Source: Candidatus Equimonas faecalis
Lineage (GTDB): Bacteria > Bacteroidota > Bacteroidia > Bacteroidales > Bacteroidaceae
Assembly (NCBI GenBank): GCA_018066245.1
Contig: JAGHRT010000054.1
Span: 1 to 60,914, forward strand
Direction of reading: 5' to 3'
DNA length: 60,914 nt
Part shown: piece after piece, positions 2,864 to 60,600 of the stretch
Layout of the letters: each line of letters opens with the position of its first letter
How positions within the stretch are numbered: position 1 is the first letter of the stretch
Notes under the pieces: model-generated
Told to the model about the DNA's origin: nothing
The model's input: only the letters and a program-made list of their open reading frames with translations
Database searches by the model: none
Translations under genes and position numbers: made by a program

Positions 2864-2930
2864 GCCGATGGAAGTCCGCCGATAGAAAGAACCGGCCCGC
2901 CGACAGGGAAAACTGTCGGCGGGCTGGTTT
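2864..2930. repeat. 22-bp-type intergenic repeat locus 1
   Basis: One A-type unit in reverse orientation (AGTCCGCCGATAG, 2873-2885) lies about 22 bases before a facing pair of units that forms the hairpin at 2891-2928. The locus sits in the junction between convergent manC and rnc. Same family as the loci at 5.7, 8.4, 11.2, 14.4, 15.9, 18.2, 20.5, 33.7, 50.8, 58.6 and 60.5 kb. Confidence 0.8.
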
Positions 2931-2931
2931 T
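2891..2931. terminator. manC/rnc convergent terminator hairpin built from repeat units
   Basis: The arms at 2891-2906 and 2913-2928 pair over 16 bp (core CGCCGACAG / CTGTCGGCG, one G-T pair) around a six-base loop, GGAAAA. A T-run follows on the plus strand (2928-2931). It should terminate manC; the T-run on the minus side is weaker. Confidence 0.75.
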
Positions 2932-2987
2932 ATGTTGCGGCACCTCCGTCCGCCCCCTTCTTTTGGGGAGCCGGAGGGGGCGGCGGG

Positions 2988-4352
2988 TCAGTCGGTGGTG
3001 GTGCCTGGAGCCCGTTTGGCAGGGCGGTGGCGGCGCGACGGACGCTTGCGCTTCTCGGCAGGCGCGGCGGCTGCGGCCTCCGTGGGAGCCTGTGGGGCTT
3101 CGGGCTCGGCGTGTGCGACGGGCTGGGGTTCGGCTTCGGCGGGCTTGTCCTTGGGCTTGGCCGTCCTGGTGCGCTTGCGCGGGGCGTTGGGCTCAGGGTC
3201 GGCGGCTTTGGCTCCTTGCCGGTTGCTGCCCTCGGCAGTGTCCGTGGCCTGGGGCGTGGGCTCAACGGGCTTGTCCTTGGGCTCAGTGGGCTTATCCTTG
3301 GGCTCAGTGGCCTTTGCCTTGGGTTCGGCGGGCTTGTCTTTGGGCTTGGCGGCTTTGGGGGCTCGTTTCGGCGCATTGTCCTTGGGCTCGGCAGGTTTTT
3401 CCTGCTTCTGCTCGGCGGCTTCGGCCTTGGGAGCGGGCTTTTCGGCGGGTTTGGCCTGTCGCTGGGCGGTGCGCACGGGCTTTTTCTTGCCGGTGGCGGG
3501 CACTGTGCCGGCGTTGGTGGTGTGTTCTATCTCGGCAATGCGCGGCAGGGCGGCGTATTCCTCGGCTTCCATGGCGGTGCGTTTTTCCTTGCTGCCGAAC
3601 ACGCTGTCCTTGAAGCCCTGTTCGTGGCGCAGGCGGGCGAGTGCCTGCCGCGCGGCTTCCTGCTCGGACTGTTTCTTGCTGAATCCGTGGCCCTGTCCGC
3701 AGGCGATGTCTTCGATGATGACGCTTGTCAGGAACTCGGGGCTGCCGTCTTTCTGCGTTTCCTTGTCGAGGCGGAAGTCGCAGCGGAGCTTGTTTTTCTG
3801 GGCCCACTCCAGGAGTTTCGACTTGAAGTTGGTCTCTTTGTTGGCCGTATCGTCGATGTTGAGGGTCTTTTCGTCGGTCATCTTGTTCTCTACGAAGGAG
3901 CGCACGGCTTCATAGCCGTGGTCGAGGTAGAGTGCGCCTACGAGGGCTTCGAAGGTATTTCCGCCGAGGTTAGAGTTGTGGCAGTTGTTATTGACGTTGC
4001 TGTGGAGCAGGTCAATCATGCCCATTCGTGCGGCCAGCCGGTTGAGTGTTTCGCGCTGCACCATTTTGGAGCGCGTGTTGGTGAGGAATCCTTCGCGCTT
4101 GTTGGGGAAGTGGTGGTAGAGCACGTCGCTCACGGTGGCTTCGAGTATGGCGTCGCCGAGGTATTCCAGTCGTTCGTTGTTTACGGGGCGGTCCTGTCCG
4201 TGTCGTCCCCTGTATTGGAGGGAGCGGTGGGCGAGGGCTTCGCGGTAGAGTTCGAGGTTGTGGGGGTATCTCCCCAGTATTCTGTAGAGGGCCTTGCGCA
4301 GCTGCACGTTGCGTTGGAAGGGCAGTCTGGCTCGGTCGATTAGGTTTCTCAT
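2988..4352 (-). CDS. rnc: ribonuclease III with long Lys/Pro/Ala-rich tail
   Basis: Double-strand-specific endoribonuclease for rRNA and mRNA processing. Residues 59-70 (NERLEYLGDAIL) are the catalytic signature; a second acidic site lies in NTFEALVGALYLD. A double-stranded-RNA-binding domain follows at about 175-245, ending in SKKQSEQEAARQALARL. The protein is 454 residues, against about 220-300 for most bacterial homologues: residues from about 270 onward form a low-complexity basic tail rich in K, P, A and E, with repeated EPKDKP-like blocks and an RKRPSRRHRPAKR end. The tail should be disordered and could bind RNA. The start lies 4 bases after the fabF stop, so the genes are co-transcribed. 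Confidence 0.93.
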   Translation of the reverse strand: MRNLIDRARLPFQRNVQLRKALYRILGRYPHNLELYREALAHRSLQYRGRHGQDRPVNNERLEYLGDAILEATVSDVLYHHFPNKREGFLTNTRSKMVQRETLNRLAARMGMIDLLHSNVNNNCHNSNLGGNTFEALVGALYLDHGYEAVRSFVENKMTDEKTLNIDDTANKETNFKSKLLEWAQKNKLRCDFRLDKETQKDGSPEFLTSVIIEDIACGQGHGFSKKQSEQEAARQALARLRHEQGFKDSVFGSKEKRTAMEAEEYAALPRIAEIEHTTNAGTVPATGKKKPVRTAQRQAKPAEKPAPKAEAAEQKQEKPAEPKDNAPKRAPKAAKPKDKPAEPKAKATEPKDKPTEPKDKPVEPTPQATDTAEGSNRQGAKAADPEPNAPRKRTRTAKPKDKPAEAEPQPVAHAEPEAPQAPTEAAAAAPAEKRKRPSRRHRPAKRAPGTTTD

Positions 4353-4356
4353 AAAG

Positions 4357-5669: not shown

Positions 5670-5775
5670 CTGTCGGCGGGGTGGGAAGGCGTAGGCCGCC
5701 GATGCTTTTTTCTGCCGTATAGGGTAGGGGGGACTGTCGTATGGGACAGTCAGCCCTGCCTTACAGGACGGTTTG
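5670..5775. repeat. 22-bp-type intergenic repeat locus 2 (acpP-fabF spacer)
   Basis: About five degenerate units read on the plus strand: CTGTCGGCGGGGT at 5670, a variant GGCCGCCGATGC, CTGCCGTATAGGGT at 5712, CTGTCGTATGGGAC at 5734 and CTGCCTTACAGGAC at 5756. The last three starts are exactly 22 bases apart. The T- or G-run side points rightward, antisense to the leftward operon. Confidence 0.75.
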
Positions 5776-5869: not shown

Positions 5870-5900
5870 CACGGGAGACGGCGCTGGGCCTCTCCTCTGT

Positions 5901-8420: not shown

Positions 8421-8507
8421 TTCTGTCGGCGGACTGGTTTTTTCTGTCGTACAGGAGGGTTTTCCCTGTCGTATAGGAGAGTTTTTCCTGCCGTAGGGGG
8501 GCGGTCA
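8421..8507. repeat. 22-bp-type intergenic repeat locus 3
   Basis: Four units read on the plus strand start at 8423 (CTGTCGGCGGACTGG), 8444 (CTGTCGTACAGGAGG), 8466 (CTGTCGTATAGGAGA) and 8488 (CTGCCGTAGGGGG). Spacings are 21, 22 and 22 bases. The last unit runs into the stop codon of the dus gene. Confidence 0.85.
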
Positions 8508-11136: not shown

Positions 11137-11148
11137 GCTGATGATTGT

Positions 11149-11253
11149 CCTGTAGGCTGGTGGTTTTTAGTCCGCCGATGGTTTTTCCTGCCGTATAGGA
11201 TGATTTTCCCTGTCCTATACGCCGGTTTACGCTGCCCCGTAGAGGGGTGCGGG
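11149..11253. repeat. 22-bp-type intergenic repeat locus 4
   Basis: Plus-strand units start at 11149 (CCTGTAGGCTGG and T-run), about 11170 (AGTCCGCCGATGG and T-run), 11188 (CTGCCGTATAGGATG), 11210 (CTGTCCTATACGCC) and 11232 (CTGCCCCGTAGAGG). The last three starts are 22 bases apart. It fills the 124-bp gap between the U32 gene and ribF. Confidence 0.8.
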
Positions 11254-14445: not shown

Positions 14446-14524
14446 CTGTCGTATAGGATGCTTTTTCCTGCCGTATAGGACGGTGCAGCCTGCCGTATAG
14501 GATGGATTTTCCTATCGGCGGACT
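14446..14524. repeat. 22-bp-type intergenic repeat locus 5
   Basis: Four units on the plus strand start at 14446, 14468, 14490 (all B-type, CTGYCGTATAGGAY) and 14512 (A-type, CTATCGGCGGACTA), every start exactly 22 bases from the last. This is the cleanest copy of the periodicity. It lies in the presumed leader of the hexosaminidase gene. Confidence 0.9.
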
Positions 14525-14584
14525 AAGGAGGCACAGCCGCCGCCCGCTGCGGCGGATAGGCGGGCGTGCAGCGATTTCTCCCCG

Positions 14585-15729: not shown

Positions 15730-15886
15730 GCACCTCACCCCGAACAAGAAACAATCTTGCTATATTAAAACACCCCCTCCCCCTCCCTTGTCTGAACTCA
15801 GGTTCAGTTCTCTCTCCACCCATTGGGCCGCCACCGGCCCCTGTCCCGCCGGCCGTCAGAGCCGCCATGGAAGGTCGCAGAATCCA

Positions 15887-15963
15887 TCGTACAGGACAGT
15901 AAAAACAAGTCCGCCGACAGGTAAAACTGTCGGCGGACTATTTCGTACTGTCGGCGGACTAAG
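15887..15963. repeat. 22-bp-type intergenic repeat locus 6
   Basis: A B-like unit (ATCGTACAGGACAG, 15886-15899) is followed by a facing pair of A units (hairpin 15907-15938) and one more forward A unit (CTGTCGGCGGACTAAG, 15947). The two forward A starts (15926 and 15947) are 21 bases apart. Confidence 0.85.
15907..15942. terminator. bidirectional terminator hairpin built from repeat units
   Basis: AGTCCGCCGACAG (15907-15919) pairs perfectly with CTGTCGGCGGACT (15926-15938) around a six-base loop. TATTT follows on the plus strand, and TTGTTTT follows on the minus strand beyond 15907. It sits between the convergent anti-sigma and FKBP genes. Confidence 0.78.
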
Positions 15964-18231: not shown

Positions 18232-18318
18232 ACGGGTGTATAGTGTAGTTTTTCCTATCGGCGGAATAGTTTTTCCTGCCGTATAGGGTAGTTTTCGCGG
18301 TTGTATGGGATAGTGACG
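18232..18318. repeat. 22-bp-type intergenic repeat locus 7
   Basis: Plus-strand units start at 18232 (ACGGGTGTATAGTGTAG and T-run), 18254 (CCTATCGGCGGAATAG and T-run), 18275 (CCTGCCGTATAGGGTAG) and about 18297 (GCGGTTGTATGGGATAG). Spacings of 22, 21 and 22 bases fit the rule that A units are 21 and B units 22 bases long. Gap between the GT2 gene and glyS. Confidence 0.85.
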
Positions 18319-19196: not shown

Positions 19197-19201
19197 AGAG
19201 G

Positions 19202-19246
19202 TTAGGGGTTAAGGGTTATGGGTTATGGGTTAAGGGTTATGGGTTG
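19202..19246. repeat. 7-bp G-run repeat (telomere-like, quadruplex candidate)
   Basis: Six G-runs (GGGG at 19205, then GGG at 19213, 19220, 19227, 19234 and 19241) separated by TTAA or TTAT, a strict 7-base period on the plus strand. It lies exactly between the GT4 stop (19247) and GT2 start (19196). Spacing fits the G3-N4 pattern of four-stranded G structures on the template strand; the mRNA would carry the CCC side. Confidence 0.9.
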
Positions 19247-20538: not shown

Positions 20539-20640
20539 GTCTATAGGATTGTTGTGCGTAGTCTATAGGATGGTCGTGCGTAGTCTATAGGATGGTGTGT
20601 CCTGTCGGCGGACTTGTTTGTCCTCTCGTTGGACGGGCTG
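20539..20640. repeat. 22-bp-type intergenic repeat locus 8
   Basis: Three variant B units (GTCTATAGGATNGT, starts 20539, 20561, 20583) with near-identical 22-base sequences are followed by an A unit (GTCGGCGGACTTG, 20604) and a degenerate A unit (20625). The B units here carry GTGCGTA in place of the T-run, and so form a locally homogenised sub-family. Confidence 0.88.
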
Positions 20641-26473: not shown

Positions 26474-26649
26474 CTGCGACCAGCCCTCCCTCCCCTGCAC
26501 ATTAGCACTTTCTCCCCTATACACTAGCTTTTCCTCCCCTATACACTAGTGTTCCCTCTCATATACACTAGTTTTTTCGCTCATATACACTAGTTCATCC
26601 TCTTATATGCACTAGTGTTCCCTCCTCCGTACACCGGTACGTGCTGGCG
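26474..26649. repeat. 22-bp tandem array with TATACACTAG core
   Basis: The core TATACACTAG or a variant starts at 26496 (TGCACATTAG), 26518, 26540, 26562, 26584, 26606 (TATGCACTAG) and 26628 (CGTACACCGG). Every spacing is exactly 22 bases; a weaker unit is possible at 26474. The inter-core sequence is T/C-rich (TTTTCCTCCCC type). Aligned on the T-run, it has the same frame as the B units (CGTATAGGAT) of the other loci, but a different core. Confidence 0.9.
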
Positions 26650-26800: not shown

Positions 26801-27185
26801 CCCCGCATTGGTAATCTCGCGTGTGCGCATGGTTATATTGCCTTTCTCAGTTGCAGGCAAAGCCCTTTCCCGCCTTGTCCCCTTCCCCGACCTTCACGGT
26901 TTGGGATGAACCAAGACTTTTGTCCCAACAGAACCTCTGTAGAATCCAGCCAACGGCTGCACACTCCCCAAAATCCCAGCAAGTTCCTTTTTCTTAGGCA
27001 AATAAAATTGCACGCTCAGATGTAGGAGTGCAGCAAATGTACTACCATGTGACGCATTCGACGCACTCGACGCAGAAAAATACATTTTCGCACGCCAATA
27101 CGCCCTCTCCCCCTACCTTTTCCCAAAGTGGGGTAAAGTAAAGAAAATCTATATAAACTCTATACATTGGAGCATACACAGTAGA

Positions 27186-28703
27186 ATGTCAACTGCCAAT
27201 CGTGTCATAAAGAATACCGGATACCTCTATGCTAAGATGGGTATCACGATGTTCGTGTCGCTCTATACCACGCGTCTCATTCTCAACGGACTTGGTGCGA
27301 GCGACTTCGGCATCTTCAATATCGTGGGCGGTGCCATTGCTATGCTCGGCTTCCTCAATGCAGCCATGGCCAGTGCCACGCAACGCTTTATGAGCTACGC
27401 AGAGGGAGAGGGAAACAAGGAGAAGCAGAAGTATATTTTCAATATTAGCATTGTGCTGCACGCGGCAATAGCCCTTATTGTTGGTTTAGTTCTCGTAGGT
27501 GCAGGATGGTTCTTCTTCAATGGTATCCTTACAATACCAGACAACCGAGTTTTTGCTGCAGAAATAGTATATGCAAGCCTCATCGTCAGCACGATGTTCA
27601 CGGTCATGTCTGTACCCTACGATGCCGTGCTCAACGCTCACGAAAACATGAAGTATTATGCCCTTGTGGGTATATTGGAAAGTTTTCTTAAACTCGCTGT
27701 GGCTTTTGCTTGCGTTTACGCTACAAGCGATAAACTCATCGTTTATGGAGTCCTAATGGCTTGTATCCCGTTTATTACTTTGTCCATCATGCGTATTTAT
27801 TGCCATCGTCATTATGAAGAGTGTATATTGGCTCCTCGACGCTATTATTCCCAAGCGCTGATGAAGGAGATGACAGGGTTCGCGGGTTGGAATTTTTTGA
27901 CCTCGGTATCTTCTATCTTAGGTCAGTATGGATTGGGTGTTGTTGTTAATCATTTCTTTGGTGTATTACTTAATGCAGCTCAAGGAATCGCCAACCAAAT
28001 ATCAGGTATGTTAATGGCCTTTTCTAATAATATGATGAAAGCCGTTAATCCTGTTCTAGTAAAAAGCGAAGGATCGCAAGATAGAGAGCGTGTAACTTAT
28101 GTAGCGTTATTCGGTTGTAGGATTTCTTTTTTGATTATGGCGATTTTTGAAGTTCCAATGATTCTTCTTGCTCCGTATGTACTTAAAATTTGGTTAAAAA
28201 ATGTACCGGAATGGGCTGTGGTTTTCACGCAACTACAACTAACGCGTTCCTTGATAGAGCAATTATTCAGTAGCTTATTCACGTCCATCTATGCAACAGG
28301 TAAAATTAGAGAGTATGCAATAGTCAAATCATTTCTTAACATATTGCCCCTTCCTTTAACAATTTTATGCTTTGAATTAGGCTTTTCTCCTTATTGGTTA
28401 TATCTAAATTGGATACTATGTTGGGGTGTTCTTGGCGGATTTGTTGGTGTCCACTTTTCTTGGAAGGTAGCAAGAATACCTTCTGCCTGCTTTACAAAGG
28501 TGGTATTACTACCTTGTGTGTTAACTGTAATTTTATCTGTTAGTGCATATTTAATAAACTTTTTAGTAGGTAATGCCAATTACAACTTGTACTTGGGTTT
28601 ACTGACTCCTTTCTTTATTCTTAGTATAGGGTGGTTCGTCATCCTACAAAAACAAGAACGCACGATACTGAAGTCAATGTTACAAGATATTATCACAAAA
28701 TAG
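27186..28703 (+). CDS. wzx: Wzx-type lipid-linked oligosaccharide flippase
   Basis: A 505-residue membrane protein with about 12-14 helices of the MATE/oligosaccharide flippase fold (MSTANRVIKNTGYLYAKMGI; SLYTTRLILNGLGASDFGIF). It should move undecaprenyl-linked repeat units across the inner membrane for Wzy polymerisation. It is the first gene of the locus. Base composition changes inside it: the first 300 bases look like the GC-rich chromosome and the rest is AT-rich, suggesting a recombination join within the gene. Confidence 0.9.
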   Translation: MSTANRVIKNTGYLYAKMGITMFVSLYTTRLILNGLGASDFGIFNIVGGAIAMLGFLNAAMASATQRFMSYAEGEGNKEKQKYIFNISIVLHAAIALIVGLVLVGAGWFFFNGILTIPDNRVFAAEIVYASLIVSTMFTVMSVPYDAVLNAHENMKYYALVGILESFLKLAVAFACVYATSDKLIVYGVLMACIPFITLSIMRIYCHRHYEECILAPRRYYSQALMKEMTGFAGWNFLTSVSSILGQYGLGVVVNHFFGVLLNAAQGIANQISGMLMAFSNNMMKAVNPVLVKSEGSQDRERVTYVALFGCRISFLIMAIFEVPMILLAPYVLKIWLKNVPEWAVVFTQLQLTRSLIEQLFSSLFTSIYATGKIREYAIVKSFLNILPLPLTILCFELGFSPYWLYLNWILCWGVLGGFVGVHFSWKVARIPSACFTKVVLLPCVLTVILSVSAYLINFLVGNANYNLYLGLLTPFFILSIGWFVILQKQERTILKSMLQDIITK

Positions 28704-28714
28704 AAATTGTAAGA

Positions 28715-29515: not shown

Positions 29516-29538
29516 AAAGTTATTAATGATACTGAAAA

Positions 29539-32275: not shown

Positions 32276-32298
32276 ACAATTTATAAAGATCACCCAGA

Positions 32299-33636: not shown

Positions 33637-33682
33637 GGCGCAACCAAATATGGCAAAGTTTGTGCCAAAGGCTAGGAATAAT

Positions 33683-33735
33683 GATTTCGCCGATAGATTT
33701 TACCATCTTGCCAATAGGAAAAACCATCTTATACG
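33683..33735. repeat. 22-bp-type repeat locus 9 inside the AT-rich glycan locus
   Basis: On the plus strand TCGCCGATAGATTTTACCAT, CTTGCCAATAGGAAAAACCA and CTTATACGATA are reverse-orientation A and B units, with the ACCAT cores at 33702 and 33723 (21 bases apart). The T-run side is on the minus strand, antisense to the rightward genes. It lies in the only large gap of the cassette, between the Wzy-like gene and the next GT4. Confidence 0.7.
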
Positions 33736-33803
33736 ATAATAAATACCGACTATTTTTCAGAGTGCTCAACCCTATTCAATAAATAATCCAACGATTTCAA
33801 TAA

Positions 33804-35108
33804 ATGCGTGTACTTTGGCTTTCAATGACCCCAGGTTTATATGGGAAAGGAAATAATGCGTACAATGGCGGAGGGTGGATTGCATCACTTCAAGGATTGC
33901 TTGAAAACGAACAAATAGATTTAGGCCTTTCTTTTATTACCCATACTGAATTGGAAAAGAAAGTAGAGGGTCATACGATATACTATCCTGTCTTTGTGCC
34001 AGAACTGACAATGTTCCAGAAGTTGCGTACTTATTATGGCGGTTATCGTAAAGAGGATAAATCTGTTTTAGAATCAGCCTTACAACGTGTTGTAGAAGAC
34101 TTTCAACCTGATATAATTCACGTTTTCGGCATAGAAAATCCTCAGGCTATTATTCTTGGTAAAACTGATATACCGGTGATAGTGCATCTTCAAGGAATTC
34201 TCGGACCTTGCGATACTGCTTTTTGGCCACCTGCTGTAAATGCATCTTCGTTTACTAAGCCTTTTACCAAACGGGAATGGATTATGAGAAACGGCTATAT
34301 ATTTGCGAAGAAGTCTATTCATGTAAGGGCACTCCGTGAAAAGAAACTGTTTAAAAGACTGGAATATGCTATGGGGAGGACGACGTGGGATAAGCAATGT
34401 ACTTCCCTTATGGCTCCTCAATCTGAGTACTTCCATGTGGATGAGGTGCTTCGCCCTGTATTTTATGAGAATTCGGGCAAATGGGAGAGGCCTGTGGATA
34501 CTCAGATTCAAATCTTCTCAACAATAAGCAATACAGTTTATAAAGGTTTAGACCTTATTTTGAAAACGGCAAAGCTTCTTAAAGAATACATGGATATATC
34601 TTTTAACTGGTATGTCGCAGGTGTGAAACCGGATGATTGTCTTGTAAAATTCTTTGAGAAAATATTCAACATCAGGAGTGAAGAAGTAAATATCAGATAT
34701 CTTGGAGTATTGACTGCAAAGGATTTATGCCAGAAAGAGTTGCAAAGCCATTGTTATGTTCATACTTCCTATATAGATAATAGTCCCAATTCTTTATGTG
34801 AAGCACAACTTTTGGGCGTACCATGTATATCTACAAATGTAGGAGGTATCTCCAGCTTGGTGGAACATGGCAAAACGGGGTTTCTTGTTCCTGCGAATGC
34901 TCCGTATGAATTGGCCTATTATATTAGTCAAATAGCTTGTGATAACGATCTGGCTACAGTGGTGAGCAAAAAAGGCACCTTATCTGCCGCCAAACGTCAT
35001 GATAAGGAAAAAATAGTAAACCAGCTGCTCAATACGTATAAAATGGTAATTAACAATCTTGAAAACAATAAAATCCCTAGTACAAATGCTCAAAAAGAAG
35101 ATTCTTAA
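33804..35108 (+). CDS. family 4 glycosyltransferase
   Basis: A 434-residue GT-B enzyme. MRVLWLSMTPGLYGKGNNAY opens the acceptor half. The donor half has DNSPNSLCEAQLLGVPCIST and GKTGFLVPANAPYELAYYI, typical of GT4 capsule enzymes (E-x7-E type region). The next gene starts directly after its stop. Sugar specificity is unknown. Confidence 0.88.
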   Translation: MRVLWLSMTPGLYGKGNNAYNGGGWIASLQGLLENEQIDLGLSFITHTELEKKVEGHTIYYPVFVPELTMFQKLRTYYGGYRKEDKSVLESALQRVVEDFQPDIIHVFGIENPQAIILGKTDIPVIVHLQGILGPCDTAFWPPAVNASSFTKPFTKREWIMRNGYIFAKKSIHVRALREKKLFKRLEYAMGRTTWDKQCTSLMAPQSEYFHVDEVLRPVFYENSGKWERPVDTQIQIFSTISNTVYKGLDLILKTAKLLKEYMDISFNWYVAGVKPDDCLVKFFEKIFNIRSEEVNIRYLGVLTAKDLCQKELQSHCYVHTSYIDNSPNSLCEAQLLGVPCISTNVGGISSLVEHGKTGFLVPANAPYELAYYISQIACDNDLATVVSKKGTLSAAKRHDKEKIVNQLLNTYKMVINNLENNKIPSTNAQKEDS

Positions 35109-35933
35109 ATGACAAGAGGTTTAGCAATACTTCTTACAGTATATAACCGCAAGAGTTGTACCTTAAAATGCCTTCAGCAAATCTCGTCACAAGAGTTGAA
35201 GGGGTTTGACATCGCTATTGATATATACATAGTAGATGGCGGCTCCAATGATGGAACTGTTGAGGCTGTGCGCAATCTGTTTCCAGATGTTCATATTAAA
35301 GTGAAAGATGGAGTATATTGGAATCGAGGCATGTATGCGGCATGGGAATGGGCTTCGTCTGTTAGAGAATACGATTTTTATTTGTGGCTTAACGATGATA
35401 CGTTTATTTATCCTTTTTGCATCTCATCTTTGTTGGAAGAGTCCCTGCGATATAAGGATAAGGCAATAATAGTTGGTGCGACAGTAAATACGGAAATTAG
35501 TTCAAAGCAAACATACGGAGGTCGCATGGCCAATGGACTATTTCCTACGTTGGGTATAACTTCAGAAATTCACCATTTTAACGGAAATATCGTACTTATT
35601 CCTATAGCAGTGTTTAATAAATTAGGGAATCTTGACCCTTATTTTCAACACTCAAAAGGAGATTTTGATTATGGAATGCGAGCCTTGGCAGTAGGTATAA
35701 AGATGTATCAAGCAGCGCAAGCCCTAGGTGAATGTGATATTCATCCTAGTCTTGACCAGTGGTGTAATCCGGAGTTTCCTTTCCCAGAGCGTTGGAAAGC
35801 GATGAACCAACCTAATGGTATGCCGCCTAATGAGACATTTTATTTGGAAAGGAAACATATAGGGCTTATTTCTGCTTCTTTTCATTGGCTAACAATACAC
35901 ATACGATGCATGTTCCCTTCTTTATGGAAATAG
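35109..35933 (+). CDS. family 2 glycosyltransferase
   Basis: A 274-residue GT-A enzyme: GLAILLTVYNRKSCTLKCLQ, VDGGSNDGT, GVYWNRGMYAAWEWA and LWLNDDT (D-x-D type). It resembles rhamnosyltransferase-like GT2 enzymes of O-antigen loci. It starts on the base after the previous stop, so translation is coupled. Confidence 0.88.
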   Translation: MTRGLAILLTVYNRKSCTLKCLQQISSQELKGFDIAIDIYIVDGGSNDGTVEAVRNLFPDVHIKVKDGVYWNRGMYAAWEWASSVREYDFYLWLNDDTFIYPFCISSLLEESLRYKDKAIIVGATVNTEISSKQTYGGRMANGLFPTLGITSEIHHFNGNIVLIPIAVFNKLGNLDPYFQHSKGDFDYGMRALAVGIKMYQAAQALGECDIHPSLDQWCNPEFPFPERWKAMNQPNGMPPNETFYLERKHIGLISASFHWLTIHIRCMFPSLWK

Positions 35934-35969
35934 ACCATGTGAATTTAGATTAATTTAAAGGTGTTACTT

Positions 35970-36887
35970 ATGAATAAGAAAGTACCGATTCTTGTTTTGG
36001 CTTTTAATCGTCCAGACCATGTCGCAAAATCCATGGAAGCCATTCGTGAGTACCAGCCGGATAAGCTTTATTTGGAATGTGACGGTGCTCGTACTCACAA
36101 AGGGGGAGAAAGAAAAGCCGTTGAAGAAACCCGTAAAGCGATGCTTGATAGTGTTGATTGGCCCTGTGAAGTGAAAACATTGTTTCGTGAAGAAAATCTT
36201 GGATGTGCCAATGCTGTGTATGGTGCAATATCATGGTTCTTTGAAAATGAGGAATATGGATGTATAATAGAAGATGATATTGTAGTCTCTCAAGATTTTT
36301 TTCGTCTTTGTGAAGATTTATTGCCAAGATATAAAGATGAAGAACGTATAATGGAAATCGGGGCAAGAAATCATCGGCCAAATATAAATAAAGCAAACAC
36401 ATACGTTTACACCAATGGCTTTCATATTTGGGGCTGGGCTACATGGCGGCGGGCTTGGCATAAAATGGATATGAACATGAAAAATTGGCCAAGGATTTCG
36501 ATTGGTCATTTGTGGGGAAAATTTGGTATGTTTAAGGGTTCTATGATGTATTATTACTGGAAGGACTGCTATAAACATCTGGAAGAGAACACATCATGGG
36601 GAACTCGGTGGTATTTTTGTGTAACATTCCATAACGGATTGGTTCTCATTCCTTGTGTGAACTTAGCTATTAATGTAGGAGTGGATGGCGGCGGTACACA
36701 TTATGATGAGGGGGACATAGACCCCTACGCCTACCTTTGCCTTCAAACAATTTCGTGGCCATTGGCGTATAACGACACTTTTGAATTTGATAAACACCAA
36801 CTTAAGGTGGAAAAGGAGGATTTTCTGTATATCCGTAAACTCGGTTTAAAGAAAAAAATAAAAAAAATCTTTTACCGTGGCTGTTAA
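35970..36887 (+). CDS. GT-A (GNT-I-like) nucleotide-sugar transferase
   Basis: A 305-residue protein starting MNKKVPILVLAFNRPDHVAK, with EENLGCANAVYGAISWFFEN, GCIIEDDIV (metal-binding DD) and FHIWGWATWRRAW. It resembles the hemolysin HlpA-like / GNT-I-like group in bacterial glycan loci. The ATG at 35970 has AAAGG upstream at 8-12 bases; a GTG nine bases earlier in frame is less likely. The C-terminus is strongly basic (LKKKIKKIFYR). Confidence 0.8.
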   Translation: MNKKVPILVLAFNRPDHVAKSMEAIREYQPDKLYLECDGARTHKGGERKAVEETRKAMLDSVDWPCEVKTLFREENLGCANAVYGAISWFFENEEYGCIIEDDIVVSQDFFRLCEDLLPRYKDEERIMEIGARNHRPNINKANTYVYTNGFHIWGWATWRRAWHKMDMNMKNWPRISIGHLWGKFGMFKGSMMYYYWKDCYKHLEENTSWGTRWYFCVTFHNGLVLIPCVNLAINVGVDGGGTHYDEGDIDPYAYLCLQTISWPLAYNDTFEFDKHQLKVEKEDFLYIRKLGLKKKIKKIFYRGC

Positions 36888-37455
36888 TTATCACAACATG
36901 GGCAATGGAGATTCGCAATTAAAGTTTTTTCTCCATTATATCTTTAATAAATTGCGTACTTGGATTTATTTCCATTTGCGCTATCGCAATGTGGAGTATA
37001 AAGGATTCATTAGGGTTTTAAAAGGCACTTCGTTTGGCAGTTTCCCAATATCATTGGGACATAATGTACAATTCGGAGAATACAGCAATATATCCACTCC
37101 TGCTAAAATAGGGAATAATGTCCTGCTCGCAGGAAGGGTTTGTTTGGTAGGCCGCAATGACCATACTTTTAATGTCCCAGGACAGACAATTTGGGATGGG
37201 GCACGAAAAGTTGATGGATATACAATTATTGAAGATGATGTCTGGATTGGCCATCGTTCTACGATAGTTGGCCCTGTTACAATAGGGTCAGGTAGTATCA
37301 TTGCCGCAGGTTCAATCGTTACAAAAGATATTCCTACTTGTGAAATATGGGGTGGAGTCCCTGCCAAAAAAATTAAAGATAGATTTTCTACTCAAAAGGA
37401 AAAAGAGTTGCATTTAGAATATTTAAAAACAAATGAAGCGCATAAGAGCTTTTGA
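36877..37455 (+). CDS. hexapeptide-repeat acyltransferase
   Basis: A 192-residue left-handed beta-helix protein of the CysE/LacA/WbbJ group: IEDDVWIGHRSTIVGPVTIG, SIIAAGSIVTKDIP and IWGGVPAKKI with the catalytic-type H in GRNDHTF. It should O- or N-acetylate a sugar of the repeat unit. The listed GTG start overlaps the previous gene; an ATG at 36898 gives 185 residues, and neither has a clear ribosome site. Confidence 0.85.
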   Translation: MAVNYHNMGNGDSQLKFFLHYIFNKLRTWIYFHLRYRNVEYKGFIRVLKGTSFGSFPISLGHNVQFGEYSNISTPAKIGNNVLLAGRVCLVGRNDHTFNVPGQTIWDGARKVDGYTIIEDDVWIGHRSTIVGPVTIGSGSIIAAGSIVTKDIPTCEIWGGVPAKKIKDRFSTQKEKELHLEYLKTNEAHKSF

Positions 37456-38395
37456 TTATATTAGGGCTTTTTCTATCCTTGGAATTGTTCTGTGTCATTA
37501 TTGTTTTAATTGGAGTGCAGCCACGGGGACAGGCAGATGGCTTGGGACGACCTTTAATGTCGTTTTCCTATGCATTTCCGCTTTACTTTTGGGAAAATCA
37601 TGGGGAGAGAAAGGATGTGCTGCATACAATTTGGAGTTTTTTAAGCACCGTATTATAAGATTGGTAATAGCCTACTATCCTTTTTTAATACTGATGTTTA
37701 TATTCCTTGGGGTCACTGGTTTTTCCTTCAGGATTTATGATGTAGTCATGCACTTCGCTTTTCTGCCATGGCTTGACAAACTACCAGGTTTTGGGCATTT
37801 ATGGTTTGTAACGATGATAGTGCTATGCTATTTGGCCGTTTTGTTGCAAAGTAGATGGCATGGATTGACAACTTGTCAAGAAATAATGGCCGTGGCCGTG
37901 GCCGGTATTCTTCACTATTGTTGCCTTGATAAAGGTTTGCCCGGACAGGCTTTTTCCTATTTGGCAGTCTTCCTTGTAACTTTCAACCATTCTTCTCAAA
38001 TTCTTGATAAGGTAAGGAGCCTAAACAAAGTTACATTCTTTGATGTAACTGGAATTCTTCTGTTTGTTGTGTCATGGAAGGCTTTTGATTTAGGCTTGTA
38101 TGATCATTATCGCTTTGTTGCGGAATGGGTAGGGATTATTGATGCGGCAATGGCTATAGCTTTAATGCTTAAGGTATTTGATAACGCCCCTCATAGCCGT
38201 TATATTGATTATACGTCCAAAATAAGTTTTGAAATATATCTTATCCACCATATTGTAGCTTTTGGAAGATTCTCTGTGCTGCATATTTTGTCAAATCCGT
38301 TGTTGGCTCTATTGTTTTTACTTACATTTTCTTATTTTGGGGGCTTTATTCTGAATATTATTAGTGAAAAGTTCAGGGCTGCTATAACATGCTGA
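37433..38395 (+). CDS. membrane acyltransferase (family 3, OafA-like)
   Basis: A 320-residue protein with about ten membrane helices. RIRAFDYIRAFSILGIVLCH has the R-x10-H motif of acyltransferase family 3 (R near the N-terminus, H in LCH), and FGHLWFVTMIVLCYL is the second conserved block. Such enzymes acetylate glycan residues at the membrane. It overlaps the preceding acyltransferase by 23 bases. Confidence 0.87.
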   Translation: MKRIRAFDYIRAFSILGIVLCHYCFNWSAATGTGRWLGTTFNVVFLCISALLLGKSWGEKGCAAYNLEFFKHRIIRLVIAYYPFLILMFIFLGVTGFSFRIYDVVMHFAFLPWLDKLPGFGHLWFVTMIVLCYLAVLLQSRWHGLTTCQEIMAVAVAGILHYCCLDKGLPGQAFSYLAVFLVTFNHSSQILDKVRSLNKVTFFDVTGILLFVVSWKAFDLGLYDHYRFVAEWVGIIDAAMAIALMLKVFDNAPHSRYIDYTSKISFEIYLIHHIVAFGRFSVLHILSNPLLALLFLLTFSYFGGFILNIISEKFRAAITC

Positions 38396-39633
38396 CTATT
38401 CTCATTAACGCTTACGCTTGTGGTCCAGGTAGAGGGTCAGAGCCAGGGATGGCTTGGAACTGGTGCCTGAATCTTGCACGGTATTGTAATTTGTATATCA
38501 TTACAGAAGGCGAGTTTCGTGAAGATATAGATCGTGTGCTTCCTTCTCTGAAACAAGGCGCAAATATGCACTTTTATTTCCTGCCTGTGAGTGATAAAAT
38601 AAGGAATATGTGTTGGAACCAAGGTGATTGGCGCTTCTATTATTATTATTCAAAATGGCAGAAGAGGGCACTTAAGCAAGCTCAAGAGATTATAAAAACG
38701 ACTCATATTGATGTAATACATCAGTTGAATATGATTGGTTTCCGCGAGCCTGGCCGATTATGGAAAATAGATGGTATCCCATTAGTGTGGGGGCCGACGA
38801 ATGCAAAAGAAGCTTTCCCCATGGCCTATCTCAAAGGAGCAAGTACAAAGAGTAAAATATTTATCTACACAAAAAACGCCCTTACTCGCTTCCAACTTAT
38901 ATGCAGTCCTAATGTACACAAGATGGCTAAAAGGGCTCAGACGATTGTTGCAGCTTCAAGTGATAGTGCTGCCTCCATTTGTAAATTTCTACATAGGAAC
39001 CCAGTAGTAATTAATGAATCGGGGTGTGAATTTGTTGAGAATAGCGTCGCTATTCAGCCAAATAACGGTACTCTCCAACTCCTTTGGGTGGGACGCTACA
39101 TATTCACCAAACAATTAACTTTAGCTCTTGAATCCCTAGCAAAGATAACAGCAGATGTACGTTTGCATATTGTGGGTGGATTAATAGAAGAAGAAAAGCC
39201 CTTTAAAGTTCTTGCTCATCAACTGGGAATTGAAGATTTGTGTATTTGGCACGAAAGAATTTCCCATTCAGAGGTTCAGACGCTTATGAGACAGTGCGAT
39301 TTGTTCTTTTTTACAAGTGTTGCTGAAGGCACTCCGCATGTTGTTTTGGAATCTATTGCCAATAATTTGCCTGTCTTGTGTTTTGATACTTGCGGTCATG
39401 GTGATTGTGTGGATGATACTGTTGGCATCAAGATACCTTTGACAAATCCTCAGCAAAGTATAAAAGATTTTGCAGAGAAGATAGACTATCTCTATTATCA
39501 TCGAGAGGAACTTCAACGTATGTCGGAGGGATGTGCAGTTAAGCAAAAAGCATTAAGCTGGGAGTCAAAAGCCCTACAGATGTTAGACATTTACCAAAAA
39601 GCTATTTCTTCATATAATAATGAGAAAAATTAG
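38389..39633 (+). CDS. family 4 glycosyltransferase
   Basis: A 414-residue GT-B enzyme: ILINAYACGPGRGSEPGMAW (N-terminal donor-side loop), LLWVGRYIFTKQLTLALESL and SVAEGTPHVVLESIANNLPV (E-x7-E type). It overlaps both neighbours (7 and 14 bases). It is the last gene entirely within the AT-rich cassette. Confidence 0.9.
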   Translation: MLTILINAYACGPGRGSEPGMAWNWCLNLARYCNLYIITEGEFREDIDRVLPSLKQGANMHFYFLPVSDKIRNMCWNQGDWRFYYYYSKWQKRALKQAQEIIKTTHIDVIHQLNMIGFREPGRLWKIDGIPLVWGPTNAKEAFPMAYLKGASTKSKIFIYTKNALTRFQLICSPNVHKMAKRAQTIVAASSDSAASICKFLHRNPVVINESGCEFVENSVAIQPNNGTLQLLWVGRYIFTKQLTLALESLAKITADVRLHIVGGLIEEEKPFKVLAHQLGIEDLCIWHERISHSEVQTLMRQCDLFFFTSVAEGTPHVVLESIANNLPVLCFDTCGHGDCVDDTVGIKIPLTNPQQSIKDFAEKIDYLYYHREELQRMSEGCAVKQKALSWESKALQMLDIYQKAISSYNNEKN

Positions 39634-47066: not shown

Positions 47067-48344
47067 CTATCGCAGGCAGTTGTCGAGGGCGGCCTTGATG
47101 GCGGCTTGGTCCATGTGCTGGCCGATGAACACGATTTTTTGCATTCGGTCGCCGTACTCCTCGTCCCAGTCGCGCTCGCGGAGCAAGGGGTTGTTTTCCA
47201 GCAGGGCGTGGAGTTCCTCGGGAGGCATTGTGGCGTACCACTGCCCTGCATCGCGCAGGTTCACCTGCCGTCCGGCTTGCTCGAATACATAGCAGATGTC
47301 TGGCTCGTCGTGGAACCAGCACATTCCCTTGGCTCGAATTACGCCTTTCGGCCAGTGGCGGGCTACGAACTCATCGAACAGGCTGATGTTGAACGGCCTG
47401 CGTGCGAAATACACGAAGGTGGAGATGCCGTATTCCTCGGTGTGGCTGTGGCCCTCGCCGTGGCAATGGTGGCAGTGGCAGCCCGGGCCATGATGGTGGT
47501 GGTGCTCTTCCTCGTGGTGGTGATGTTCTTCCTCGTGGTGGTGGTGCTCTTCCTCGTGGTGGTGATGCTCTTCTTCGTGGTGGTGGTGCTCTTCCTCGTC
47601 ATTTTCGGCTACGTGCCCTTCTATCTCCTTTATCCATGTGGCTGAGGTGGCTACGCCGTCGAAGTCGAAGAGGCGGGTGTTGAGCAGGAGGGTGAGGTCG
47701 ATGTCGCAGTAGTCGCAGGGAATGATTTCGGCCTTGGGCTGGAGGGCACGCAGCACTTCTTCGGTGCGGCCCAGCTCCTCGGGCGACACTTCGGAGGCTT
47801 TGTTGAGCAGCACCTTGTTGCAGAATTCGATTTGCTCCACTACGAGTTTCTCGATGTCGTCCTCGTCCATCGGGCGGGTGAAGTCGAGTCCGCCCCGGAA
47901 CTCGTCTTTCAGGCGGAGGGCATCTACGACGGTGGCGATGCAGTCGAGGCGTGGCACGCCGTGCTGTATGAATTCCTCGCCCATGGTGGGGATGCTGCAG
48001 ATGGTCTGGGCGATGGGGGCGGGCTCACAGATGCCGCTGGCTTCGATAACGATGTAGTCGAACCGCTGCATGGCCATGATGTCGCAGAGTTGCTTTACGA
48101 GGTCCAGTTTCAGGGAGCAGCAGATGCAGCCGTTCTGGAGGGCCACGAGGCTGTCGTCGGCTTGTCCCACGATGCCGCCCTGTGCGATGAGCTCGGCATC
48201 AATGTTTACCTCGCCTATGTCATTGACGATGACGGCAAAGCGTATGCCGCGCTCGTTCTGGAGGATGCGGTTCAGCAGGGTGGTTTTTCCGCTGCCCAGG
48301 TAGCCGGTGAGCAGCAGGACGGGTATTTCGGGGATGGTTTTCAT
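47067..48344 (-). CDS. CobW/ZNG1-type GTPase metallochaperone with His-rich repeat
   Basis: A 425-residue COG0523 GTPase. GYLGSGKTT (14-22) is the P-loop; CICC (73-76) is the zinc-binding CxCC motif; NKAS near 181 is the guanine-specificity motif. Residues 249-285 are five (HHHHEEE) repeats followed by GPGCHCHHCHGEGHSH, a large metal-binding insert. The C-terminal CobW domain covers about 305-425. It probably delivers or stores zinc in the cytoplasm. The ATG at 48344 overlaps the DUF3109 stop; the upstream open frame is DUF3109 read in another frame. No Zur site was recognised. Confidence 0.92.
   Translation of the reverse strand: MKTIPEIPVLLLTGYLGSGKTTLLNRILQNERGIRFAVIVNDIGEVNIDAELIAQGGIVGQADDSLVALQNGCICCSLKLDLVKQLCDIMAMQRFDYIVIEASGICEPAPIAQTICSIPTMGEEFIQHGVPRLDCIATVVDALRLKDEFRGGLDFTRPMDEDDIEKLVVEQIEFCNKVLLNKASEVSPEELGRTEEVLRALQPKAEIIPCDYCDIDLTLLLNTRLFDFDGVATSATWIKEIEGHVAENDEEEHHHHEEEHHHHEEEHHHHEEEHHHHEEEHHHHHGPGCHCHHCHGEGHSHTEEYGISTFVYFARRPFNISLFDEFVARHWPKGVIRAKGMCWFHDEPDICYVFEQAGRQVNLRDAGQWYATMPPEELHALLENNPLLRERDWDEEYGDRMQKIVFIGQHMDQAAIKAALDNCLR
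47490..47597 (-). repeat. 21-bp tandem repeat coding for (HHHHEEE)n
   Basis: Five near-identical 21-base units inside the CobW gene encode the His4-Glu3 block. In-frame slippage could change the number of metal-binding units without breaking the gene. Confidence 0.9.
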
Positions 48345-50792: not shown

Positions 50793-50865
50793 CTATCCCG
50801 CCGATAGTTTTTTCTGTCGGCGGACTTGTCGGCACTGTCCCGCCGCCGGTTTTTCCTCGCCTTGG
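50793..50865. repeat. 22-bp-type intergenic repeat locus 10 (A units only)
   Basis: Plus-strand units start at 50793 (CTATCCCGCCGATAG), 50814 (CTGTCGGCGGACTTG) and 50835 (CTGTCCCGCCGCCGG), with a fourth trace at 50856. Every spacing is 21 bases. Cores alternate in orientation (CCGCCGA versus TCGGCGGA). Gap between ung and speA. Confidence 0.85.
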
Positions 50866-58233: not shown

Positions 58234-58261
58234 TGGGGGGCGGAATTGGGGGTGGTATGGC

Positions 58262-58280
58262 CTACTGCAAGGTGCAGTAG
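58262..58280 (-). promoter_or_regulatory. leader hairpin of DUF2851-dprA
   Basis: CTACTGCA and TGCAGTAG form an 8-bp stem with a three-base loop just downstream of the expected transcript start and about 29 bases before the ATG. No T-run follows. It could be an operator or an mRNA structure. Confidence 0.5.
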
Positions 58281-58293
58281 TCTTTTGAGCACA

Positions 58294-58325
58294 CAAAGTT
58301 ACGCTTTTGTGCTGAATTTGCCAAG
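58294..58325 (-). promoter_or_regulatory. promoter of DUF2851-dprA
   Basis: TAACTTTG (58301-58294) with CTTG (58325-58322) 20 bases upstream on the minus strand: a good -7 and a one-mismatch -33. Confidence 0.7.
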
Positions 58326-58341
58326 GCAGACAGGGGGAAAG

Positions 58342-58373
58342 CTTGGCCGTCCGCGTTTTTTTTGTTACTTTTG
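58342..58373 (+). promoter_or_regulatory. promoter of the DEAD-box helicase
   Basis: CTTG (58342-58345), a 20-base spacer and TACTTTTG (58366-58373). The ATG at 58382 is only 8 bases past the -7 element, so the mRNA leader would be very short. Confidence 0.65.
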
Positions 58374-58381
58374 TCCGTGAA

Positions 58382-60508
58382 ATGAAGACTTTTGAAGAAC
58401 TTGGCCTCGCCGCCCCGTTGCTGCGTGCCGTAGAGGAGCTGGGATTTGTGGCTCCCATGCCCGTGCAGGAGGCTGTGATACCTGTATTGCTCAGTGAGCA
58501 GCGTGACATCATCGCCCTGGCGCAGACCGGCACAGGCAAGACGGCTACCTTCGGCCTGCCTCTGCTGCAAAAAATCGTGGGGCTGGCCCCCGCTGACCCT
58601 GAGGTGGTTACCGCTCCCCTGCCGGGCGATGAAACTATCGGCGGGATAGATGAAACTGTCGGCGGGATAGATGAAACTGTCGGCGGACTTGTTGAAACTG
58701 TCGGCGACCAGGAAAGAAAGCAAGGCTTGCCGCACCTGCGGCCCGGCGACCGGGAAACAGGCAGTTCGGCTGCCGCACCTGCGGCCGGCGGGAGCCGCAC
58801 GCCCCGAGCCATTGTGCTGAGCCCCACCCGCGAACTGTGCGTGCAAATCGCCGGCGACCTGCAATCCTACGCCCAGCACCTGCCCACCATGCGCATAGTA
58901 TGCGTCTATGGCGGTGCCAACATCTATCCCCAGATAAAGGAACTGGAGCGCGGAGCCGACATCGTGGTGGCCACCCCAGGACGCCTCATCGACCTCATGG
59001 AGAGGGGCGTGGCCGACCTCGGCACCGTGGCCAACGTGGTGCTGGACGAGGCCGACGAGATGCTGAACATGGGCTTCTCGGAAAGCATCGACCGCATCTT
59101 GGAGGGCGTGCCGCCCACGCGCACCACATGGCTCTTCTCCGCCACCATGAGCCGCGAAGTGCAGAAGGTGGCCCAGCGCTACCTCAAGGGGCACCGCGAA
59201 ATAGTGGTGGGCTCCCGCAATGAGGGCGCGGAGAACGTGAACCACGTGTGCTACGTAGTAAAGGCCGCCGACAAGTACCGTGCGCTGAAGCGACTGGTGG
59301 ACTATCATCCGCATATCTACGCCATCGTTTTCTGCCGCACGCGCCGCGAAACGGCAGAGGTGGCCGCCGGACTCATACGCGACGGCTACAACGCCGAAGC
59401 CCTGCACGGCGACCTCTCGCAGCTGCAGCGCGACCAGACAATGCTCAAGTTCCGCGAACACCGCACCCAGTTGCTCGTAGCCACCGACGTGGCCGCACGC
59501 GGACTCGACGTGGAGGACCTCACGCACGTCATAAACTATGGTCTGCCCGACGACGTGGAGAACTACACCCACCGCTCCGGTCGCACCGGAAGGGCGGGAA
59601 AGAACGGCACGTCGCTGAGCATTATCCACGTTAAGGAGAAGCATAAGGTGCGCCTTATAGAAAAGACCATCGGCAAAGCCTTCGACATGGCACAGCTCCC
59701 CGAGCCGCGCGACATCTGCCAGCGCCAGCTCTTCCGCGTCATCGACCAACTGGAACGCACGGAGGTGGACGAGGAACAGATAGCCCCCTTCATAGGCGAA
59801 GTGATGGGCAAGCTCTCATGGCTCTCGAAGGAGGACATCGTGAAGCGCCTCGTGCAGCAAGAGTTCGGGCGGTTCGTGGCCTACTACTCACAGGAAAAAC
59901 CCATCGAGGCCCCCACTGCGGAAAAAGGACGTAAGAGTGCAAGCCGCTCCCAGAGCACCTCTCCGAAGGGAGAGCGGGGAGAAGTGTCCCCCGGCTATGC
60001 CCGCCTGTTCCTCAACCTGGGCAAGAAGGACCGCTTCTATGCCCGCGACGTGATTAACCTTGTGAACCGCTACGTCAAAGGCCGCGTAGATATAGGCCAC
60101 ATAGAGTTGGCCGACCGCTTCTCCCTGTTTGAGGTGCCCGAGGCCGAGGCACGCATGGTCATCAACGCCATGAGCAAAGCCAAGGCAGCCGACCGCCGCG
60201 TGGTGGTGGACTTCGACCGCGACCAGGCCTCCCGTCCCGCCAAAGGCTCCCGCCGAGCCTCCCGGGCACTCTCCGAAGCGGAAAACACGGATTGGGAGGA
60301 ATCTTCTGCCTCCCCCCGTGATGGCGAGGCCTGGCAGGACCGTGGACGCAAGCCTCGGGGCGGCGCATCTCACGAGGGCCGCACCCAGACGAAGAAGGAG
60401 ATACGGGCGCAGCGCAATGCCGACCGTAAAGCCGCCCGTAAGGCTGAGAAACAAAACCGCAAGGCCAAGCAGTTCACAGCCGACGACTGGAAGCAATTTT
60501 TCAAATAA
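58382..60508 (+). CDS. DEAD-box RNA helicase with in-frame repeat insertion
   Basis: A 708-residue DEAD-box ATPase remodelling RNA. In order: Q motif (TFEELGLAAPLLRAVEELGF), motif I AQTGTGKT (47-54), PTRELC, LDEADEM, SATMS, RRETAEVA region, VATDVAARGLDV and HRSGRTGRAG. A DbpA-like RNA-binding domain follows (RLFLNLGKKDRFYARDVINL), then a basic tail (KAARKAEKQNRKAKQF). Between motif I and Ia, residues about 72-140 are an unusual insertion holding four copies of a seven-residue repeat (DETVGGI type, 83-108) and an A/G-rich stretch. These are encoded by intergenic-type repeat DNA. The start is fixed by the Q motif. Confidence 0.93.
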   Translation: MKTFEELGLAAPLLRAVEELGFVAPMPVQEAVIPVLLSEQRDIIALAQTGTGKTATFGLPLLQKIVGLAPADPEVVTAPLPGDETIGGIDETVGGIDETVGGLVETVGDQERKQGLPHLRPGDRETGSSAAAPAAGGSRTPRAIVLSPTRELCVQIAGDLQSYAQHLPTMRIVCVYGGANIYPQIKELERGADIVVATPGRLIDLMERGVADLGTVANVVLDEADEMLNMGFSESIDRILEGVPPTRTTWLFSATMSREVQKVAQRYLKGHREIVVGSRNEGAENVNHVCYVVKAADKYRALKRLVDYHPHIYAIVFCRTRRETAEVAAGLIRDGYNAEALHGDLSQLQRDQTMLKFREHRTQLLVATDVAARGLDVEDLTHVINYGLPDDVENYTHRSGRTGRAGKNGTSLSIIHVKEKHKVRLIEKTIGKAFDMAQLPEPRDICQRQLFRVIDQLERTEVDEEQIAPFIGEVMGKLSWLSKEDIVKRLVQQEFGRFVAYYSQEKPIEAPTAEKGRKSASRSQSTSPKGERGEVSPGYARLFLNLGKKDRFYARDVINLVNRYVKGRVDIGHIELADRFSLFEVPEAEARMVINAMSKAKAADRRVVVDFDRDQASRPAKGSRRASRALSEAENTDWEESSASPRDGEAWQDRGRKPRGGASHEGRTQTKKEIRAQRNADRKAARKAEKQNRKAKQFTADDWKQFFK
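58626..58712. repeat. 21-bp repeat array inside the helicase gene
   Basis: A-type units start at 58635 (CTATCGGCGGGATAGATG), 58656, 58677 (CTGTCGGCGGGATAG and CTGTCGGCGGACTTG) and 58698, each exactly 21 bases apart, so the reading frame is preserved. The T-run of the intergenic form is replaced by GAAA. Confidence 0.93.
58729..58792. repeat. GCCGCACCTGCGG palindrome repeat, two copies in the helicase
   Basis: GCCGCACCTGCGGCC occurs at 58729-58743 and again at 58772-58786, and a third copy with the same flank lies in the intergenic region at 60618-60638. The copies at 58772 and 60618 share the following GGCGG as well. Together with the 21-bp array this suggests that a whole intergenic element lies inside the gene. 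Confidence 0.8.
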
Positions 60509-60538
60509 AGACACCTTCTCCTTCTCCCTAAGAGAAAG

Positions 60539-60600
60539 AAAAAATAGTCCGCCGACAGGAAAAACTGTCGGCGGACTATTTTTCCCTATAGGCGGACTAA
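60539..60600. repeat. 22-bp-type intergenic repeat locus 12
   Basis: A facing pair of A units (hairpin 60540-60583) is followed at 60586 by a hybrid unit (CTATAGGCGGACTAAG) 21 bases after the forward A start at 60565, and then by the GCCGCACCTGCGG element at 60618. The same mixture of elements is found inside the upstream helicase gene. Confidence 0.85.
60540..60583. terminator. bidirectional terminator after the helicase
   Basis: The arms 60540-60558 and 60565-60583 pair over 19 bp (core TAGTCCGCCGACAG / CTGTCGGCGGACTA plus A/T ends) around a six-base loop. T-runs flank the GC core on both strands, so it can stop both the helicase and the incoming leftward gene. Confidence 0.87.

Follow-up and report, generated by a model that had tools for sequence, protein, structure and literature searches.

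Rickettsia palindromic elements (RPE) insert in frame within genes, and paired uptake sequences, which exist as species dialects and lie in part within genes, act as terminators where inverted pairs stand at converging genes. REP and REPIN sequences, associated with RAYT transposases, are short, palindromic, dispersed and of high copy number; some lie in genes, and there dimers or groups of them code for 20-30 residues (PMC3733652). The same source presents REPs as stem-loops with an unpaired GTAG or CGTC tag that occur mostly as singles or dimers with variable spacers, GTAG families as often clustered with units in tandem, CGTC families as having no linked transposase, and some RPE as equivalent to CGTC repeats (PMC3733652). 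BrickBuilt, a repeat of Porphyromonas gingivalis, has a 23-nt unit, AGAYCATARTATCCTCTCRTRTG, with a leader and a tail that carry terminal inverted repeats like those of the IS5 family, and its 19 copies in ATCC 33277 are described as always intergenic (PMC4596501). Here we describe a family of tandem arrays in a 60,914-nucleotide stretch of Candidatus Equimonas faecalis (the window), which is contig C58 of a 2.59-Mb draft genome of 62 contigs and about 90% completeness. The proteins and DNA of the window find their best matches among Bacteroidales. In behaviour these arrays stand beside REP and RPE; they are members neither of the GTAG/CGTC REP families nor of BrickBuilt, because the features that define those groups were tested for and are absent. 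With confidence and doubt about equally matched, we favour the explanation that the arrays are a lineage-specific, REP/RPE-like dispersed element built as unusual, rigid tetrads, which a putative protein reads as DNA and which serve secondarily as terminators.

A preliminary description of the window had reported repeat units of two types, A and B, at 12 loci. Units were found at all 12, and their counts exceed chance: type A, with at most three mismatches allowed, matched 49 times against 19.0 expected, and type B matched 15 times against 4.1, no shuffle reaching either figure. The analysis was extended to an own-genome sample of 461 kb, consisting of the window and 400 kb from three other contigs, which were picked by length among contigs in which matches had already been seen. 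Modules A and B were defined in this sample by iterated profiles, and arrays were then parsed. In the window the parser recovered 12 arrays of at least three modules, namely 11 of the loci already noted and one that had been overlooked (26,512-26,615). The run at 33.7 kb is degenerate; modules score at 33,682 and 33,724, which are 42 bp apart and hence in register, and a weak one was seen between them by eye. The whole sample holds 61 arrays of at least three modules, to which most counts below refer, single modules (169 against 135 in the reversed control) and four two-module arrays being excluded. When arrays are counted from two modules upwards, there are 65 against 2 in reversed sequence. 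In two pattern searches of the whole genome the matches numbered 169, compared with 24 when the pattern was reversed, and 161, compared with 0; both strands were about equally represented, and we estimate that the genome holds a few hundred such cassettes. The dispersed, spacer-free character claimed for the family was borne out, linkers measuring only 6 bp, and the genome-wide scan that had been proposed showed that the 21/22-bp register holds beyond the window.

Module A is 15 bp long, CTRTCGGCGG followed by a more variable tail, and module B is 16 bp long, CTRYYSTATASRRYAG. B is near-palindromic, its five outer pairs being complementary in 81, 70, 48, 42 and 63% of 145 modules; the commonest 5' arms among these are CTACT (23), CTATC (17), CTAGT (15), CTGCC (11), CTACC (11) and CTGTC (10), others being rarer. 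The palindromy of A is weak. Core positions are conserved at about 0.9 or more, and the remaining positions at 0.4-0.6. When modules were found independently of one another, all 180 pairs whose gap fell within -3 to 11 bp proved to be 6 bp apart; a distance of 27/28 bp, as expected where a single module has been missed, was seen in 12 further pairs, and the gaps of 8 others were scattered over 12-36 bp. Because a module of 15 or 16 bp is followed by a linker of 6 bp, units succeed each other in steps of 21 or 22 bp. The steps given in the preliminary description are kept genome-wide, but the constant quantity is the linker, with steps of 21, 22 or 21.5 bases. Linker length is also unchanged at the 32 of 194 junctions that join an A to a B module. 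GAAAAA (34) and TTTTTC (25) are the linkers met most often; a run of A4 or T4 occurs in 103 of 190 linkers, against 5.9% in background, and in 18 of the 61 arrays the strand of the A-tract is mixed. Neighbouring modules of the same type differ at 430 of 2,242 compared bases (143 pairs; 19%), and the identity of B modules is 0.795 within arrays and 0.676 between them.

Array size is not spread over two to five units, as had been reported, but peaks at four modules. We counted 4 arrays of two modules, 13 of three, 35 of four, 9 of five, 2 of six and 1 each of seven and eight, four being the commonest size (35 of the 61 arrays of at least three modules) and the typical element measuring some 80-90 bp in all. 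In the 35 arrays of four modules, the four positions have much the same mean score (17.3, 18.6, 19.0 and 17.3 bits), and the next register outside them scores -10.8 bits, with background at -23.0.

Gaps between genes hold 51 of the 61 arrays (34 co-directional, 9 convergent and 8 divergent), and among gaps of at least 120 bp the three kinds are occupied at similar rates (30 of 99, 8 of 20 and 8 of 26, respectively). In co-directional gaps, 26 of the 34 arrays are closer to the stop codon on the upstream side (median 34.5 nt). The other ten arrays lie within called genes, including folP, menD and, in the window, a DEAD-box helicase gene; some of the remaining ones we take, from reading the sequence, to be rRNA-methyltransferase-like. 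The array at 58.6 kb, at first described as intergenic, is in frame within the helicase gene. The lengths of all ten in-gene arrays are divisible by three; nine consist of A modules throughout (84 bp when there are four) and the tenth is ABBB, of 87 bp, while one of the ten (C37:96833) begins at residue 2 and may precede the true start. Among four-module arrays, a length that is a multiple of three was found in 8 of 8 in genes versus 6 of 27 in gaps (p=1.3e-4); this and the other context, in-frame and size comparisons were post hoc, with the arrays already seen, and p values are uncorrected for multiple testing. Homologues were compared for folP and the helicase. The folP insert is missing in all 16 relatives readable there (29 fetched), which have a short loop instead, and the helicase insert is missing in all six readable there (11 shown, 29 fetched), five having a shorter linker and one, the species designated G032, a different palindromic insert in the same place.

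By helicase identity the nearest species are G032 (83%) and G031 (80%). Within the 5.6-20.7 kb part of the window, gaps flanked by orthologues on either side were available for four arrays in G032 (5670, 8423, 11145 and 14446) and for three in G031 (5670, 11145 and 20558). None of these seven gaps (4/4 in G032, 3/3 in G031) holds a module of at least 4 bits or a period-21/22 repeat. Two more G031 sites share only one flank; of these sites one is empty and the other has a single 11-bit match in what by eye is a tRNA-like stretch. One G031 junction, formed by orthologues of genes that flank window arrays, has its own modules, which follow a 22-bp register (three score and one is weak; four by eye), together with an inverted pair and a T-run. 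Another type of inverted-repeat element was seen in G032 (L189 14480-14670, L062), as GACCCTCCCC...GGGGAGGGTC in a gap and as a CTCCCCCTTTGGGGGAG type in frame within the helicase gene.

The placement in conserved genes, where in-frame copies are the only ones seen, the dispersal, the empty orthologous gaps and the similarity within arrays together point to a spreading element that duplicates in tandem. The rigid geometry, with modules spaced about two helical turns apart, the conserved cores and a spacing free of indels even though neighbours mismatch at 19% of bases argue for recognition by a protein, and A-tracts that are indifferent to strand, fixed spacing and conserved cores suggest that what is recognised is double-stranded DNA. 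Two earlier suggestions, a REP-like element of unusual tandem build and a protein bound on one DNA face as the likely cause of the rigid spacing, gain support from these observations. Under the explanation that we favour, this Bacteroidales lineage would carry a short repeat, dispersed and non-autonomous, of which the arrays are copies; these would have arisen by insertion or copying, together with duplication in tandem and an exchange of modules at the linkers. A hypothetical protein, either a mobiliser or a DNA-organising factor, would contact the phased sites on one DNA face. Possibly, head-to-head A modules between converging genes yield a strong transcript hairpin with a T-run, and so a bidirectional terminator.

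Several observations weigh against this explanation. No target-site duplication was found at the 35 four-module arrays in comparison with re-paired flanks (e.g., 8 versus 6.8 at a length of at least 6 bp), the best z, 3.6 among 150 width/offset tests, being taken as chance, and no master copy is evident, so that mobility is read from the distribution of the arrays only. The array edge is sharp but not absolute, as the outer registers exceed background; their score fits the trace of a further half-site outside the array, and a profile of the flanks, with both sides pooled, showed no conserved ends beyond this partial half-site. The absence of spacing indels despite the level of mismatch looks like lasting constraint, unlike what a decaying selfish element would show. 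This argument is weakened because the module profile is gapless, an indel inside a module reading as a missed module, and because modules were chosen by score, which favours conserved positions. The Y1 transposase genes of the genome are not closely flanked by arrays, and other kinds of transposase were not sought. Finally, the genome is a draft, and genes were called with a custom script.

Compared with the described systems, the arrays share with REP and REPIN sequences, as described in PMC3733652, a short length, high copy number, dispersal, tandem arrangement and occasional location in genes; they differ in having four modules, a fixed 6-bp linker, no constant tag and weak palindromy in A. 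The unpaired GTAG/CGTC tag of REP/RAYT systems was not found: the 5' arms of B modules vary, and CTAC/GTAG, where present, lies within the palindrome. The genome has three Y1 (HUH) transposase-like genes (L210, L211 and L212), open frames of 173-180 residues with no arrays of this family close by. One has its nearest arrays about 1.2 and 1.6 kb away and the other two have none within about 1.5 kb, so that the reported lack of a transposase holds for Y1 genes in the vicinity of arrays, the one kind sought. No Y1 gene was found in G001, G026 or G041, all of which have period-21/22 arrays. Like RPE, the arrays stand in frame in conserved genes and are missing from homologues, here those of folP and the helicase; a phased four-module architecture is not known among RPE. 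BrickBuilt is likewise dispersed in Bacteroidales as tandem units of about two helical turns (PMC4596501), whereas the units described here are 21/22 bp long and of other sequence, and some arrays lie in genes. A CRISPR was rejected, as there are no unique spacers and the 6-bp linkers are most often GAAAAA or TTTTTC. Of the features of a miniature inverted-repeat transposable element, target-site duplications were looked for at the four-module arrays and not found. In the literature searched, which includes PMC4596501, PMC5771137 and PMC3733652, no recognised description of this type of array was met, a negative limited to those searches.

It is also conceivable, but in our view unlikely, that the arrays are chromosome-organising or regulatory sites of the host, with four dimer sites per array for a nucleoid or regulatory protein, maintained by selection while their positions turn over between species. 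Such sites would account for the rigid spacing, the conserved cores and the absence of spacing indels, for A/T-tracts that stay in phase on either strand, and for arrays in every kind of gap, but not readily for the copies within folP, menD, the helicase and other genes, the seven orthologous gaps that are empty in the nearest species, or contig C15, along which 28 arrays are irregularly spaced (coefficient of variation 1.15 versus 0.89 for random placement). Similar rates across gap types, the ten arrays in genes and the empty gaps also speak against the general reading offered before, if it means a regulatory repeat that the host maintains at fixed loci. A quite improbable account of the family as a whole is that the arrays are transcription terminators or elements of mRNA 3' ends, in which tandem hairpins with T-tracts would end transcripts. 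The closeness of co-directional arrays to the upstream stop codon agrees with it, as does the behaviour of the nine convergent arrays, which fold better than module-swapped versions (-43.7 versus -38.2 kcal/mol); of these nine, 7 have inverted A pairs, versus 4 of 42 arrays in other gaps (p=8.7e-5). However, the arms of B modules show no covariation, pairing being 0.608 in real modules and 0.608 with 3' arms shuffled within arrays (0.565 when shuffled globally), and a per-module RNA hairpin is thus not supported. Nor is a structure of the whole array supported in general, since real arrays beat module-swapped ones in only 31 of 61 cases, which is chance; against column-resampled modules the real fold energy was somewhat better in 40 of 61. 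On these grounds the suggestion of an RNA-level repeat is not supported as an overall description. Divergent gaps hold arrays too, and in co-directional arrays the T-tract is antisense in 23 and sense in 10; the antisense T-run originally described is seen in 6 of 7 such arrays in the window but in 17 of 26 outside it (p=0.17), a tendency at most. A scan of the window against Rfam at gathering score returned one tRNA only, the arrays matching no known RNA family. The termination role proposed earlier is supported only at convergent gene ends, by their inverted A pairs. The arrays at 2.9, 15.9 and 60.5 kb form a long hairpin followed by T-rich DNA, most clearly at 60.5 kb, and from their sequence these are credible bidirectional terminators, but a GC-rich hairpin with a T-run is no general feature of the arrays.

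Neutral minisatellites, in which founder modules were multiplied by slippage and the period is due to chance, would explain why similarity within arrays exceeds that between arrays. They are nevertheless a very unlikely source, as the same module families occur at many loci, A and B mix with the 6-bp linker intact, and the four-module size comes with sharp edges and no spacing indels. Least probable of all, in our judgement, is a dialect of uptake-like or site-specific-recombination sequences, in which inverted half-sites centred on the linker (8-6-8) would serve a competence factor or a recombinase. The linker is fixed though module length varies, a partial half-site signal is present outside the pooled ends, A modules keep register in either orientation and the sequence is private to the lineage, all of which would fit; the arrays also resemble uptake sequences in forming inverted pairs at converging genes. 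Known uptake sequences are, however, single 9-12-mers, whereas the sequences described here are phased arrays.

Table 1. Arrays in the window, with module order (+ and - give the orientation of A modules), positions and context.
Array	Positions	Strand	Context
A-,A-,A+	2871..2927		Convergent gene junction; hairpin made by the A-/A+ pair, with TGGTTTT at its end
A+,A-,B,B,B	5670..5771		Co-directional gap between minus-strand genes (fabF side); orthologous gap module-free in both G031 and G032
A+,B,B	8423..8481		Just past a minus-strand stop codon; degenerate fourth unit to ~8503 by eye; orthologous gap of G032 module-free
B,A-,B,B,B	11145..11247		Orthologous gap holds another inverted-repeat element in G032 and is module-free in G031
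B,B,B,A+	14446..14526		Divergent gap; orthologous gap of G032 module-free
B,A-,A+,A+	15884..15962		Convergent junction; hairpin pair
B,A+,B,B	18233..18313		
B,B,A+	20558..20616		Further unit ahead from ~20,536 by eye; orthologous gap of G031 module-free
Five B modules	26512..26615		Overlooked in the preliminary description; TRF extent 26482-26625
Degenerate run	33682..33739	minus	In the low-GC island; two modules score, in register; weak third between them by eye
A-,A+,A-	50793..50849		
Four A modules	58635..58712	plus	In frame in the DEAD-box helicase gene (58382-60508); TVGGIDE-type peptide repeats
A-,A+,A+	60544..60600		Convergent junction; hairpin and T-run

The window includes an island of low GC content (27001-39000; 37-39% GC versus about 57-65% in the 3-27 kb part) with co-directional open reading frames on the plus strand. 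One array, the degenerate one at 33.7 kb, was seen inside it, and the five-module array at 26.5 kb is at its edge. Short repeats of other kinds are also present. A heptanucleotide repeat, GGTTATG/GGTTAGG, occupies 19200-19245 of the window, and the genome sample has eight occurrences of a 12-mer of this type, AACCCATAACCC. A further short repeat, which contains CTATGCTCGTCA and lies outside the arrays, has 16 copies in the 461 kb.

Relatives were compared with one genome per species. A stricter pattern, applied to 58 genomes of the genus, matched 49 times in the genome under study, 6 times in G001 and 0-3 times in the others, and a looser pattern also exceeded its control in some relatives, most of all in G056 (48 versus 21). 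One exact unit pattern had no match in viral contigs and seven single matches in named genomes of other organisms, a search from which records near the genome under study were possibly excluded. The 22-bp arrays of G001 have the same outer arms and linker around another core (CTRTCTGCGCRGAYAG), with 27 of 27 steps of 22 bp, and a B-like family of G031 has 42 of 42, palindromic families possibly being counted on both strands in these tallies. Other family seeds were disregarded, three in G032 and one in G057 being below their reversed controls, and one in G031 and two in G009 only 1.5-3 times above.

A sequence-free scan for tandem repeats in 28 other genomes of the genus, covering mostly 20 kb of each, found 42 arrays at period 21 and 28 at period 22, whereas period 20 had none and period 23 had 2. 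At least one period-21/22 array was present in 22 of these 28 genomes. In ten genomes of other genera, sampled at contigs with a chance pattern match, 3 arrays had period 21/22 and 2 had period 20/23. The period-21 tally may take in heptad repeats of coding sequence, such as occur in the window; the 28 period-22 arrays cannot be codon repeats. At 47494-47599, in a minus-strand gene, five 21-bp repeats encode HHHHEEE heptads (His/Glu-rich and possibly metal-binding), and at 3257-3346 about four in-frame 21-bp repeats, of KPKDKPxEP type, lie in a long C-terminal extension of an RNase III gene. Copy numbers in the arrays of other species ranged from 1.9 to 4.8, so that the four-module size, shown in the genome under study, is only suggested elsewhere. 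A test for palindromic consensus gave p<0.05 for 7 of 28 22-bp arrays, 4 of 42 21-bp arrays and 3 of 65 arrays of other periods in the rest of the genus, but had no power, as the genome under study, its positive control, scored 2 of 57.

Tentatively, we raise the possibility that the arrays represent an undescribed class of bacterial DNA element defined by its geometry and not by its sequence, namely four modules phased at two helical turns, created and moved by a dedicated trans-acting machinery, with species dialects in the genus and a fixed 21/22-bp rule. If a protein does read the two-turn tetrad, the arrays would offer an accessible system for studying how, where no transposase is obvious, a dispersed bacterial repeat is copied, has its size set and stays in register, and the reader protein could be found by DNA pull-down. 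The in-frame copies show how such repeats lengthen housekeeping enzymes by extra peptides, and those at convergent gene ends illustrate how a repeat may turn into a terminator. The genus-wide preference for 21/22 bp, with sequences that differ, amounts to many natural replicates.

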